Assembly (NCBI RefSeq): GCF_001458435.1
Contig: NZ_CYSF01000006.1
Coordinates: 310,001 to 374,000 of the forward strand
Length of the DNA stretch: 64,000 nt
Reading direction: 5' to 3'
From: Thalassovita mediterranea
Lineage (GTDB): Bacteria > Pseudomonadota > Alphaproteobacteria > Rhodobacterales > Rhodobacteraceae
Part shown: in pieces, positions 37,408 to 41,766 of the stretch
How the letters are laid out: every line of letters starts with the position of its first letter
Position numbering within the stretch: position 1 is the first letter of the stretch
Notes under the pieces: generated by a model
The model's input: the letters and a program-made list of their open reading frames with translations, nothing else
What the model was told of the DNA's origin: nothing
The model's database searches: none
Made by a program: the position numbers and the translations under genes

Positions 37408-37586
37408 GTGGCAATTCCCGCCGTTTCTAAAAGGTGACCACAATTTAGCCATAAAATGATACCGTTCTTTTCTAAGAATCGTTCACCTTTCGGCGGGATA
37501 TAGTTGGTAAACAAAACCCTGAGACGCGACACGTGCCCCTTTTGTGCAGGGGTATGGCAGCCAGAGGCGAGAAAGGCGAGTTTACA

Positions 37587-39659
37587 ATGGTAACGAACAA
37601 CAAAGTTTTAACGGTTTCTTACGGGACCTTCTCTTGCACCCTGGAAGGGTTCGACGATTCTTTCGACACGATGAAGTCGATTGCAGAATATTTCCGCGAT
37701 CTGGCCGCAGATGACCGTTACTTTGGCGCCGAACCTCCGACGCCGGACGCCGAAATGCTGGCCCGCATCGCAGAACGCGAAATCGCCCGTCAGGTTGTGG
37801 CACGTCAGGACGATGGCACCATTCACCTGCGCGCAGCCGAAAACGCACAAGCGCAAACTCCGGCTGCCGTTGCTGCGCCGGCGCAAACTCCCGCCCAACC
37901 GGTCGCAGAACCCGCCCCTGTTGCAGCCCCAGTGGAAGCCCTGGTTCAGGAGGCCGCGCCCGAGGTAGCTCCGTCAGCAGAGGCACCCGCAGCGGAAGCC
38001 CCCGTAGCGGAACCTGAAATCATTGACGCCGACCCGCTGCCCGAGGAGGCCGCAGAGGCCGCGCCGGCCACCGACACTGACGAAGACAGTGTTGCAAACA
38101 AACTGCAACGCATCCGCGCCGTTGTCTCGCGCAATGCCGAAGCTGCGGCACCAATTGCCGAAGCTTTCGACGAGAACGTTGCCGAAGACGCGACGCCCAC
38201 AGACGCCGGTGAGGATGACTATCTCGAAGACGAACATGCCGAAGAGATGGACGTTGCTGCACCCGAAGTTGACGCCATCCTTGAAACCGCAGCACCAGCC
38301 GTTGAAGATCTGCCGGAACTGGCCGCAGATGAGGACGTCGATCCTGCCGTATTGGCCGCTATCGCCGAGTTGAACGCAACTGAAGAAGATGACGCTGAGG
38401 TCGACGCCGCTGAAGACGTAGCTTTGGAAACCCGCATTGAGGTCAGCGAAGAGATTGCAGAAGAGGCCGAGGATGATTTTGACGCCATCCTTGCCGCAGT
38501 TCGTGACGCCGAACCTGAACCGGTAGCCGAGCCCGAAGCCGTCGCCGACATGATCGAAGAGGACGCCGAAGACATCGCCACCAATGTGGCAGAGGTTGCA
38601 CCGGAAGAGGCCGCAAGCGAGACACCAGCCGAGGCAGCGCCTGAGCAGCCTGAAGAACTGCCGCAAGAGGCCGTTCTGGATCTGCCCGAAGATGCACCTG
38701 CGCCGGTTCGCCCTGTACGCCCTGTGCGCGTGGTCAAAATGAAGCGCGCCGACTACGAGGCTGGCATGCTGACCGACAGCACCGCGGAAGAAGCCCCTGC
38801 CCCCGCTGCAGAGCCGGTCGATCCAAGTGCGCTGAGCGCCGAGGAAGAGGCGGATCTGCTACGCGAACTGTCTGAAGTAGAGGCGGAATTTGGCGATGAG
38901 GCGGAACAACCTCTCGACGCTGGAGATGTGCGCTCGATCTTTGCGGACAAAGCCGAAGAAGCAGATGTCGAGCGCCTGATGGACAAGACCGCTTCGGAAA
39001 TGGACAACCCCGAGGGCGCGCATCGCCGCAACGCGATCGCCCATCTGCGCGCCGCCGTTCAGGCCAACCGTGCCGAAACCGATGCCGGCGGCGTTCTAAA
39101 CGCGCGCGAAACTGGATCGCACGCCTACCGCGCAGACCTGAACGACGTCGTCCGCCCAACCCGCGCCGATGCTGCAAAAGCGAGCGACACCGCAGCTGCC
39201 GCACCACTAAAGTTGGTTGCCGAACAACGCGTTGACACCGCGCCCGAAGTTGCCGAGGCACCTGCCGAGGCAGCACCAGCGGTGGCGCCTGTACGCCCGC
39301 GCCGTGTGCGTCGCATCCAACCCGATGTTGTTGCAGCCCCTGTTGAGCCCGCCGCAACTTCGCCTGCTGAATTCAGCAGCTTTGCGGAATTTGCCGAAAC
39401 CGTCGGCGCGCAGGAACTGCCTGATCTGCTGGAGGCAGCTGCGTCGTACATGTCGCATGTCGAAGGTCTGGATCAATTCTCGCGTCCGCAGCTGATGAAG
39501 AAAGCCCGCCAGATCGACAATATGTCCTTCAGCCGCGAAGATGGCCTGCGATCCTTTGGCCAGCTTCTTCGCGACGGCAAGATCGAAAAACTGCAAGGCG
39601 GCCGCTTTACCGTTTCGGACCAAATCGGTTTCAAACCCGAGGCCCGCGCCGCTGGCTAA
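37587..39659 (+). CDS. Large acidic Ala/Glu/Pro-rich protein of unknown function
   Basis: A 690-residue protein in three parts. Residues 1-75 form a compact, conserved-looking domain (KVLTVSYGTFSCTLEGFDDS, then DTMKSIAEYFRDLAADDRYF). Residues 85-400 are low-complexity, rich in Ala, Glu, Pro and Asp and strongly acidic, probably disordered. A short basic patch (RPVRPVRVVKMKR) leads to a mixed region. The last 90 residues look folded again (FAEFAETVGAQELPDLLEAA, then QLMKKARQIDNMSFSRED, DGKIEKLQGGRFTVSD). No signal peptide or membrane helix is seen, so it is cytoplasmic. The layout recalls polar organiser or scaffold proteins, but no signature supports a named family. A terminator follows. Confidence 0.8.
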   Translation: MVTNNKVLTVSYGTFSCTLEGFDDSFDTMKSIAEYFRDLAADDRYFGAEPPTPDAEMLARIAEREIARQVVARQDDGTIHLRAAENAQAQTPAAVAAPAQTPAQPVAEPAPVAAPVEALVQEAAPEVAPSAEAPAAEAPVAEPEIIDADPLPEEAAEAAPATDTDEDSVANKLQRIRAVVSRNAEAAAPIAEAFDENVAEDATPTDAGEDDYLEDEHAEEMDVAAPEVDAILETAAPAVEDLPELAADEDVDPAVLAAIAELNATEEDDAEVDAAEDVALETRIEVSEEIAEEAEDDFDAILAAVRDAEPEPVAEPEAVADMIEEDAEDIATNVAEVAPEEAASETPAEAAPEQPEELPQEAVLDLPEDAPAPVRPVRPVRVVKMKRADYEAGMLTDSTAEEAPAPAAEPVDPSALSAEEEADLLRELSEVEAEFGDEAEQPLDAGDVRSIFADKAEEADVERLMDKTASEMDNPEGAHRRNAIAHLRAAVQANRAETDAGGVLNARETGSHAYRADLNDVVRPTRADAAKASDTAAAAPLKLVAEQRVDTAPEVAEAPAEAAPAVAPVRPRRVRRIQPDVVAAPVEPAATSPAEFSSFAEFAETVGAQELPDLLEAAASYMSHVEGLDQFSRPQLMKKARQIDNMSFSREDGLRSFGQLLRDGKIEKLQGGRFTVSDQIGFKPEARAAG

Positions 39660-39723: not shown

Positions 39724-40827
39724 TCAGAGAGTGTTGCGATCTTTGGAGTTCGATGTCGTGGGAACACGTGCCTGGAAAAACCGAAAGCACCCCCGCCCCG
39801 CATGTTTTGCCGCGTAGAGCGCCGTATCCGCATCGTGCAAGATTTGCGCAGGATTTACCTTTTGGCCCGCGATTGCACGGGCGATCCCAAGGCTGGCTGA
39901 AACCTGGCAGACGTGACCCAAATACCGCATCGGCTTGGTAATCTCGACAATCAAACGGTTGGCAATGCCTGATAGTTCGTTCCGCCGCACGGCGTTACGC
40001 AGGATCAGCACGAATTCATCGCCGCCATAACGGATAATCGTATCCTCTGATCGCAGTTCACGGCGTATGATATTAGCCACCTCCTGCAGAACGAAATCCC
40101 CCGCAGCATGGCCAAGGCTGTCATTGACCCGCTTGAAGTAGTCCAGATCCAGATGGATCAGCGAAAAGGCGGTGCCCGTCTGGCAAAAACGGGCCAAGGT
40201 TTCATCCATGACGCGCCGATTTTGCAAACCGGTGAGCATATCCGTACTGGCCAGCATTTCCGCCTCGGTCTTGGCCCCCTGCAGTCGCCGGTTCAGGCGC
40301 ATACTGGCGGCGATGGCCGCCGATTTTGCCTCCGTCAGGTAGAGCATTTCAACGGCCATATCGGTTGGCGCAAAATCCGCCGCAGTCAATGTTCCCTGCC
40401 GCAAGAGATCAGGCATCGCAGGGCCACATGACAGGTTCAGCAACCACCCCGCATCGGCCGCGGCCTGATCCGGCGCTGCCAGGGCAGCTATAATACCGCG
40501 CAATGCGATATTAGGTTGCTGTACCAACCGTAGACGACATGCCTTTCCATCAGCAGTCTGTGCGATGTCGGCCAACGACCGCCCTTTTTCACGTTCAAAC
40601 CGCAATAGGTGCTGAACGTGCAACTGCCTGAGGTCTGATTGACCCAGCAGTTTGGCAATGGAGGGTCCGTGATCACAGACAACCCCATCCTGATCTACAA
40701 AAAGATGAAACGGCATCAATTGGCATAGCGCCTGATGGAGATGAACCGGCAACGTTGTCGGGCGCACCTTCGGCAAGGGATCGGCGGCTATCGCAGTATC
40801 ATCGCCGCTGGGGTGAACTGGGATCAT
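39724..40827 (-). CDS. Diguanylate cyclase with H-NOX-associated-like N-terminal domain
   Basis: A 367-residue cytoplasmic protein. Residues 30-175 fit the H-NOX-associated (HNOBA) pattern: LCQLMPFHLFVDQDGVVCDH, GPSIAKLLG, TLTAADFAPTDMAVEMLYL. A short coiled coil (about 170-190) leads to a GGDEF domain with intact DLDYFKRVND, GGDEF at 268-272 and an RSED inhibitory I-site (259-262) five residues before it. It should therefore make cyclic di-GMP with product inhibition. The start codon overlaps the stop of the H-NOX-like gene (ATGA), so sensor and cyclase are translated together. The enzyme call is firm; the HNOBA call is good. Confidence 0.9.
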   Translation of the reverse strand: MIPVHPSGDDTAIAADPLPKVRPTTLPVHLHQALCQLMPFHLFVDQDGVVCDHGPSIAKLLGQSDLRQLHVQHLLRFEREKGRSLADIAQTADGKACRLRLVQQPNIALRGIIAALAAPDQAAADAGWLLNLSCGPAMPDLLRQGTLTAADFAPTDMAVEMLYLTEAKSAAIAASMRLNRRLQGAKTEAEMLASTDMLTGLQNRRVMDETLARFCQTGTAFSLIHLDLDYFKRVNDSLGHAAGDFVLQEVANIIRRELRSEDTIIRYGGDEFVLILRNAVRRNELSGIANRLIVEITKPMRYLGHVCQVSASLGIARAIAGQKVNPAQILHDADTALYAAKHAGRGCFRFFQARVPTTSNSKDRNTL

Positions 40828-41504
40828 CTGCTAGCCCCCCGACGCACCGAGGGCAGTTGATCTGGGCGTCGCTGTGCCAGCCCCTGGTGGCGGTATATAC
40901 GACCAGGGAAAGCGGTAACGCCACCGGCACCGCCGCATGATTGCGATCGGACCAACAGATCCGTACGCGACACAGACGCAGCGCATCCTGACTGCATCAC
41001 AGGAACAACCTCAACCATCGCGTGACGACCATATTGAGGCGCCATCGCCTGTACGACGCCGCGCAGGGCCAGCGCGTATTCCGGCCACTGGCCAACACAT
41101 ACCACCCGAATGACATCATGCGACCTCTGAACCTCTATTTGGGGTAGGTTCAATCCCGGAATCGACAGCGCCACACGATCTGGCACGTCTTCGAGTGATC
41201 GCAAAAAACCATCAAAGTCGTCCGCACCAAAGCGCAACAACCGCTGGAATGCGATCATGTGGGGGTGCCCGCCCAAATATGCGCCAATGCAGCCCAGCAA
41301 ATCTTCACGGGGTTTTCCCGATATCTGCTGCATTTCAGACAGAACACGCTGCGTCAGCGCGACATCGTAGTGCAACATCGGTTCAAACCGAGGCGGAACC
41401 AAACCCAAATCGTCAGCGATCTGCCGCCACACATCCGCGCCGAAGCGGTCACGCACAAAACGCTGCAACACACGATTGATCAGTCCGTGATTTTGTTGCG
41501 CCAT
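40824..41504 (-). CDS. H-NOX/HNOB-like sensor lacking the haem-ligating His
   Basis: A 226-residue protein. Residues 5-165 follow the H-NOX (haem NO-binding) fold: HGLINRVLQRFVRDRFGADVW, HYDVALTQRVLSEMQQISGK, GAYLGGHPHMIAFQRLLRFG and FDGFLRSLEDVPDRVALSIP. The proximal haem His of known H-NOX proteins falls in the SLEDVPDR region (about 103-110), where no His exists. The YxSxR haem-propionate motif is not recognisable either. The last 55 residues are Arg/Gln/Ser-rich and unlike the family. The start MAQQNHG is taken because H-NOX domains begin here; a longer form would add a signal-like segment. It is coupled (ATGA) to the HNOBA-GGDEF gene, supporting a sensing role. Confidence 0.78.
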   Translation of the reverse strand: MAQQNHGLINRVLQRFVRDRFGADVWRQIADDLGLVPPRFEPMLHYDVALTQRVLSEMQQISGKPREDLLGCIGAYLGGHPHMIAFQRLLRFGADDFDGFLRSLEDVPDRVALSIPGLNLPQIEVQRSHDVIRVVCVGQWPEYALALRGVVQAMAPQYGRHAMVEVVPVMQSGCAASVSRTDLLVRSQSCGGAGGVTAFPGRIYRHQGLAQRRPDQLPSVRRGASR

Positions 41505-41766
41505 CCCGCCACACCCGTTTTCCTGCGCCACCGCTCCACTGGCAAAGGAAAGGAACAGGCACAGCCGCACTGCGCGTTCGTCCTCCCCATGCTGCTGGAA
41601 CTGGCGTCAAACCTGCCCATTCCTAGTTGCGCGCAGATTTCATCAAACGCACAACATCACTGCTGCACCACATTCACATGGAGAAGTTAAAAAGTCGTTT
41701 ACGTGGATTGCCCCACAGTCAAAATAGCTCTGCTAAGGCGTCAACACATCTGCGGCGGCTGCGCGA

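Follow-up and report, generated by a model that had tools for sequence, protein, structure and literature searches.

An H-NOX-fold protein lacking the haem-ligand histidine, paired with a diguanylate cyclase in Thalassovita mediterranea and other Rhodobacteraceae

The gene pair at the locus and across the family

We analyzed a 64,000-nucleotide stretch of the Thalassovita mediterranea genome (hereafter, the window; contig NZ_CYSF01000006.1, positions 310,001 to 374,000) and focused on two reverse-strand genes, one for an H-NOX-fold protein and the other for a diguanylate cyclase (Table 1). The H-NOX gene reads from an ATG at 41504 to a TGA at 40824–40826 and the cyclase gene from an ATG at 40827 to a stop at 39724–39726, and the four bases at 40824–40827 are common to both, in agreement with the ATGA overlap and coordinates given in the original prediction. 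An alternative in-frame GTG start of the H-NOX gene lies at 41570 with a GGGGAGG stretch before it and would give a signal-peptide-like leader (41505–41570, reverse strand) beginning MRLCLFLSFASGAVAQ; we preferred the ATG at 41504 because aligned relatives begin at the HGLIN position. Convergent with the cyclase gene, positions 37533–39659 of the forward strand encode a 708-aa Ala/Glu/Pro-rich protein that is syntenic in congeners, and two of its versions (L173 and L174) contain a long Glu-Ala repeat. Three congeners (L156, L157, and L158) have a frame of approximately 600 aa between the H-NOX gene and a HAD gene, and the window has no such frame. There were three GGDEF matches in total in the window genome.

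Table 1. Features of the H-NOX/cyclase locus (positions are those of the window)
Feature	Position	Strand	Basis
H-NOX-fold protein, 226 aa, without haem-ligand His	40824..41504	-	HNOB 63 bits; AlphaFold2 and Foldseek
Pro108 codon, proximal haem-ligand position	41181..41183	-	alignment to ligand His of Alr2278
last 46 codons of H-NOX gene (C-terminal)	40827..40964	-	model confidence mostly low; codon-position GC atypical
diguanylate cyclase, 367 aa, HNOBA-like N-terminus and GGDEF	39724..40827	-	profile matches
HNOBA match, cyclase residues 32–79	40591..40734	-	profile match
GGDEF domain, cyclase residues 193–346	39790..40251	-	profile match
GGDEF catalytic motif, cyclase residues 268–272	40012..40026	-	sequence
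RxxD inhibitory (I-) site, RSED, cyclase residues 259–262	40042..40053	-	sequence
ATGA stop/start overlap of the H-NOX and cyclase genes	40824..40827	-	sequence
CtrA-like box GTAAA-N7-TTAAC upstream of the pair	41686..41702	-	seen in sequence

As had been predicted, the sensor keeps the H-NOX fold. It matched Pfam HNOB at 62.8 bits (gathering cut-off, 25.5), and its AlphaFold2 model, built from a 123-sequence alignment, had a mean pLDDT of 85, with block means of 90–97 over residues 11–170. The best Foldseek match of this model in the PDB was 4iae (E 2.2e-10, TMt 0.82), which its PDB title describes as a drug-bound H-NOX from Nostoc. A frameshift in the C-terminus was considered and rejected on a by-eye reading of the reverse strand only. 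The predicted absence of both haem-site hallmarks was also confirmed: Pro108 stands where Alr2278 has its ligand His, as judged from an alignment and a profile of the 123 family members described below, and the stretch corresponding to YxSxR reads CVGQW.

The cyclase matched the GGDEF profile at 141.1 bits, with the GGDEF and RxxD motifs intact as originally described. Its HNOBA score of 22.9 bits is just below the curated cut-off of 23.4; the AlphaFold2 model of residues 1–188 (88 sequences, mean pLDDT 87) had soluble guanylate cyclase chains as its closest matches (E 2.5e-5), with PAS domains next, in keeping with the proposal of an HNOBA-like N-terminus.

We surveyed the pair in 295 genomes of the same bacterial family, Rhodobacteraceae. 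HNOB was found in 220 of them, broadly in two score classes, and the N-terminus of the cyclase (A3) in 213; 210 genomes had both, 72 neither, 10 HNOB alone, and 3 A3 alone. Seven of the 10 HNOB-only genomes belong to a list of 27 high-scoring, canonical-type genomes, 20 of which also contained A3; here, "canonical-type" means the 27 genomes picked by score, and 24 such proteins were checked at the residue level. In a class-wide sample, 10 of 385 genomes matched at E 1e-10, and five of these were Rhodobacteraceae, including one canonical-type match (G294). The five matches outside the family scored 57–113 bits and had the ligand-site His, and matches above 120 bits were confined to Rhodobacteraceae.

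Our counts refer to 123 distinct members, namely the window copy, two and five members from two other searches, and 115 among the HNOB matches listed for the 295 genomes. Duplicates, a canonical-type protein (L035), and a member with a stop in its frame (L080) were excluded before counting, and the listed family-like matches of G168, G233, G025 C1, G292, G019, and G274 were left out. All 123 members matched HNOB at E 0.01. The cyclase gene lay directly downstream of the H-NOX gene in 123 of 123 members, with a 4-base overlap in 77, and the pairing is therefore not a matter of chance. RxxD and GGDEF occurred together in 120 of the 123 partner cyclases; two others had GGDEF but not that RxxD, and one was cut by a contig end. 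HNOBA was matched by 109 of 122 partner cyclases at E 0.01, which is the threshold here instead of the curated cut-off. One genome (G246) had two matches to the cyclase N-terminus (C73 and C79), possibly a duplication of the pair. Long open frames in L041 (586 aa) and G272 (496 aa) had suggested gene fusions as proof of contact. The L041 case was ruled out, as its cyclase sits in a different, overlapping frame, and no match to the cyclase profile was obtained with any H-NOX frame of the family.

We next compared pairwise divergences in 121 members, with the window left out. Divergence of H-NOX was more strongly correlated with divergence in the HNOBA region (r = 0.73; partial r = 0.66 given GGDEF) than in GGDEF (r = 0.52; partial r = 0.31 given HNOBA), and the partial correlation between HNOBA and GGDEF of the same protein was 0.12. 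The best of 300 label permutations reached 0.24, but permutation ignores relatedness, and the GGDEF half is thus the better control. Contact between H-NOX and the HNOBA region would give this pattern of co-divergence, which is correlative and no proof of it.

The upstream region holds TTAAC-type sites, including GTAAA-N7-TTAAC, which we take to be CtrA-like. A TTAAC/GTTAA half-site lay 45–75 nt upstream in 76 of the 123 members (3.3 expected from shuffles), and 26 members had a site scoring 8 or 9 against the full 9-base consensus (2.4 expected). The box of the window is further upstream than is usual in the family, and the best score at the Dinoroseobacter shibae (D. shibae) locus was only 6 of 9. 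Passages of PMC7232146 state that HNOX of D. shibae is under CtrA control, and the half-sites, as candidate sites, fit such control.

The pair is thus a real, widespread, and constrained variant of a known system. It is not the undescribed signalling system that the original prediction proposed, because the related operon of D. shibae H-NOX/Dgc1 has already been cited in print. In the partial texts of the PMC literature searched, we found no description of a His-less H-NOX family in Rhodobacteraceae, and the main text of PMC9756655 did not mention HNOB, HNOX, H-NOX, heme, or nitric oxide.

The haem site

The missing His, which had been presented as a feature of the window gene, is usual in the family. 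At the ligand position of the 123 members (window included), Pro was found 89 times, His 14 times, and other residues 20 times, so that the ligand His was missing in 109. YxSxR was complete in none of the 123, its Tyr being kept in one and its Arg in nine. As a control, His was present in 23 of the 24 canonical-type H-NOX proteins from Rhodobacteraceae, which had Tyr and Arg in 24 of 24 cases and Ser in 23. One of these 24 (L031, from G086) had Gln at the ligand position yet a complete YxSxR, the sole such case among those checked. In addition, a Trp found in all six haem-type outgroup rows was Leu in 122 of the 123 members.

Conversely, residues E71, D72, R87, R88, R91, D156, D157, and Y158 (window numbering) were near-invariant in the family and not usual in the six haem-type outgroup rows. 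This indicates that the family is constrained instead of drifting as a whole, and, together with the losses at the haem site, that the constraint is not for haem in the usual way. Without the proximal His and YxSxR, haem is not expected to be held in the usual manner in most members, including the window copy, and the window protein is probably not a haem NO sensor. However, the D. shibae member is reported to be active with haem and NO while lacking the Tyr and Ser of YxSxR, so that loss of the motif alone does not prove the absence of haem.

The family-specific residues might instead serve another input: most Pro-type members would sense another small molecule or a redox state through the emptied haem cavity or other residues. 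The near-invariant positions listed above agree with this explanation, as do the drug-bound Nostoc structure that was the best fold match and a report that haem-free Vibrio H-NOX responds to oxidation (passages of PMC7108781). Nevertheless, we consider it unlikely, given that the window copy lacks E71, D72, R87, D156, and D157 and that the family has no conserved Cys cluster: Cys was common at just two columns, in more than half of the 123 members at one and in more than 30% at the other. The original prediction had also pointed to conservation of His80 and His82; the former column had His in 91 of the 123 members, whereas the latter was not among the columns with more than 30% His.

One of the 14 His members, L072, comes from a genome in which the first 6,000 bases of a 190,506-bp contig are identical to the D. 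shibae DFL 12 plasmid NC_009955.1. We infer that L072 is Dshi_2815, because it is the sole HNOB match of a D. shibae genome and D. shibae has a single H-NOX gene, adjacent to dgc1 (as stated in PMC6473078, in part). Its ligand site reads DLHD. By comparison, L069 has Pro, and its genome matches plasmids of Cereibacter (Rhodobacter) sphaeroides, including 2.4.1 records, at 99.8%. The His members were scattered over the H-NOX tree, with at least 11 changes between His and not-His, outgroups included, in a quick tree with many weak branches; a group table from the same tree, in which the not-His rows were left out, counts one change. His is present in all six of the outgroup rows, but whether it was lost or regained within the family cannot be read from the tree.

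We also compared the nitrite reductase genes in the 116 members whose genomes belong to the 295. Post hoc and uncorrected, nirS was present in 7 of 14 genomes of His members and in 23 of 102 others (p = 0.046), and any nitrite reductase in 9 of 14 and 35 of 102 (p = 0.041); for nirK alone, the counts were 3 of 14 and 12 of 102 (p = 0.39). The association of His with nirS or nirK was not significant by independent pairs. A link of this kind is suggestive only and would fit NO sensing by the His members, not by the others.

These data bear on a further explanation, in which most Pro-type members still bind haem, weakly or through another axial ligand, and would sense NO in the way proposed for D. 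shibae and, by homology, for Rhodobacter capsulatus (R. capsulatus). The His in 14 of the 123 members and the more frequent nirS and nitrite reductases in their genomes speak for it, but the nirS contrast fits the His members only and has the statistical limits given above. Moreover, the side chain of Pro cannot ligate iron, and the window genome had neither nirS nor nirK at E 1e-60. Even though the D. shibae member of the same family is cited as an NO-bound inhibitor of Dgc1 (in passages of PMC7232146 and PMC8846402), we regard this explanation as improbable.

The window copy and its near relatives

The window H-NOX is the most derived of the 123 members. It keeps 39 of the 66 family-conserved columns (59%; family median, 95%), and its terminal branch was 2.83 against a median of 0.5 in a quick tree that gave long-branch warnings. 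This branch also spans the stem of its group, because the nearest relatives have no H-NOX; the comparable path for the neighboring HAD gene was 0.85 (0.67 for the stem plus 0.18). In the window cyclase, the N-terminal part retains 35 of 47 conserved columns (median 44), and the GGDEF half retains 55 of 57 (median 55). The N-terminal drift is not unique, as four or more members have retained fewer conserved columns and one or more an equal number, and the branch of the window cyclase (1.62, in a quick tree with the same warnings) was exceeded by three other cyclases.

Among nine genomes of the genus, including that of the window, the cyclase was present in nine and H-NOX in six. The remaining three (G076, G296, and G300) had no recognizable H-NOX; in each, the cyclase follows the HAD gene at the position that it has in the window, and the CtrA-like box is also present. 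Between the HAD gene and the cyclase of these three, a search of stop-delimited pieces of 15 aa or longer yielded no H-NOX relict (best E 1.2). Their cyclases keep 30–32 of the 47 N-terminal and 50–53 of the 57 GGDEF-half conserved columns. The HAD and cyclase trees both grouped the window with these three genomes, with support of 100/100 and 100/99, respectively. Within the group, the window and G076 form a pair in the cyclase tree (98/96); if this is right, H-NOX was lost twice.

A rival explanation is that the window H-NOX is already functionless, its frame being kept only by translational coupling of the cyclase start to the H-NOX stop. Its extreme divergence and atypical 46-codon tail, its absence in three relatives, and the drifted cyclase N-terminus would all agree with this, as would L080 (G271) elsewhere in the family, where a stop inside the H-NOX frame splits the match into two pieces and the cyclase is uninterrupted; the broken frame of L080 is either a sequencing error or a further case in which the sensor was lost and the cyclase retained. 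However, the fold of residues 11–170 is still predicted confidently, the HNOB score is well over the cut-off, and when neutral drift to 46% identity was simulated, indels not counted, few genes retained an open frame (18 of 500 and 8 of 500). Because stop-free frames were so rare, some selection has probably kept the window frame, whether for function or for translational coupling, and we consider complete loss of function somewhat doubtful.

The window H-NOX is an extreme and probably deteriorating example. The original prediction had ranked this gene pair as its strongest candidate, but the copy makes a poor type specimen, being the most derived of the 123 and possibly losing its role, as three near relatives without a recognizable H-NOX have kept the cyclase.

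Proposed role and known systems

Our preferred reading, to which we give a probability of roughly 55%, is that the H-NOX protein is a haem-independent allosteric or structural subunit of the cyclase and that the window copy is degenerating or being released. The Rhodobacteraceae operon would then encode a split guanylate-cyclase-like regulator, in which the H-NOX subunit, in most members (including that of the window) without the usual haem, may dock on the HNOBA/PAS N-terminus of the GGDEF diguanylate cyclase and set its activity. In the window genome, drift has been extensive in the H-NOX and has also affected the N-terminal half of the cyclase, and the catalytic GGDEF half has been kept, as if the cyclase were being released from H-NOX control, which apparently happened in the three near relatives.

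By analogy with the H105C variant of soluble guanylate cyclase beta, in which the ligand His is replaced, haem is absent, and the state resembles the activated one (PMC8196705, in part), Pro-type H-NOX may be fixed in a "His-released" signalling shape. The D. shibae protein is said to inhibit Dgc1 in its NO-bound form, and such a fixed shape might therefore hold the cyclase down; on this analogy, the effect might be either inhibition or activation.

More tentatively, the family might have switched repeatedly, by one residue, between a haem-ligated NO sensor and a haem-free cyclase subunit, with the cyclase having escaped in one group; the label "NO sensor" would then be wrong for most members, and c-di-GMP would be under a different input or a constitutive setting. 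In Rhodobacteraceae, motility, biofilm, and the production of gene-transfer agents are linked to c-di-GMP, and a single species is the basis on which these H-NOX proteins are called NO sensors (passages of PMC7232146 and PMC9143464). With His in 14 of the 123 members and a full YxSxR in none, the extension of NO sensing to homologues is doubtful for most of them, and if most cannot ligate haem, the NO-sensor model fails for most of the family. Thus, given the family counts, extending the D. shibae role to the R. capsulatus homologue, named as RCAP_rcc02630 in PMC7232146 (in part), needs a check of its ligand residue. The His members, the Pro members, a worn copy, and absences with the cyclase kept form a natural series, in which haem-free control of a cyclase by H-NOX is directly testable.

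The closest known system, and the only member of the family known to have been tested, is H-NOX/Dgc1 of D. shibae, in which H-NOX (Dshi_2815) is reported to inhibit Dgc1 when NO-bound; Bedrunka 2018 is the source cited for it in the passages of PMC7232146, PMC6473078, and PMC8846402. It resembles the window pair in protein family, gene order, and cyclase partner, but D. shibae has His at the ligand site; the window copy, with Pro there, is much more strongly derived. The Hnox1/Lpg1057 pair of Legionella and the H-NOX/DGC pair of Shewanella woodyi are similar in that H-NOX acts on a separate c-di-GMP enzyme (Table 4 of PMC8846402). Both are listed there as haem sensors, and they are likened here by description, not by sequence.

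The redox switch of Vibrio cholerae H-NOX provides a case in which the H-NOX fold is reported to be active without haem (passages of PMC7108781). However, the proximal His is present in this protein, which also carries a zinc-Cys site, unlike the present family with no conserved Cys cluster. According to the same partial text, a survey of 598 H-NOX proteins, collected with a Vibrio query at a BLAST threshold of 1e-20, found the proximal His in all.

Soluble guanylate cyclase is comparable at the level of domains. The H-NOX and PAS-like folds are common to it and the window pair, and its alpha-subunit H-NOX, which binds no haem (passages of PMC6839917), is a precedent for a haem-free subunit, as is the H105C variant. 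In soluble guanylate cyclase, H-NOX, PAS/HNOBA, a coiled coil, and the cyclase follow one another, whereas the system of the window is split over two genes, and its output domain, unlike that of soluble guanylate cyclase, is GGDEF, from which c-di-GMP is the expected product.
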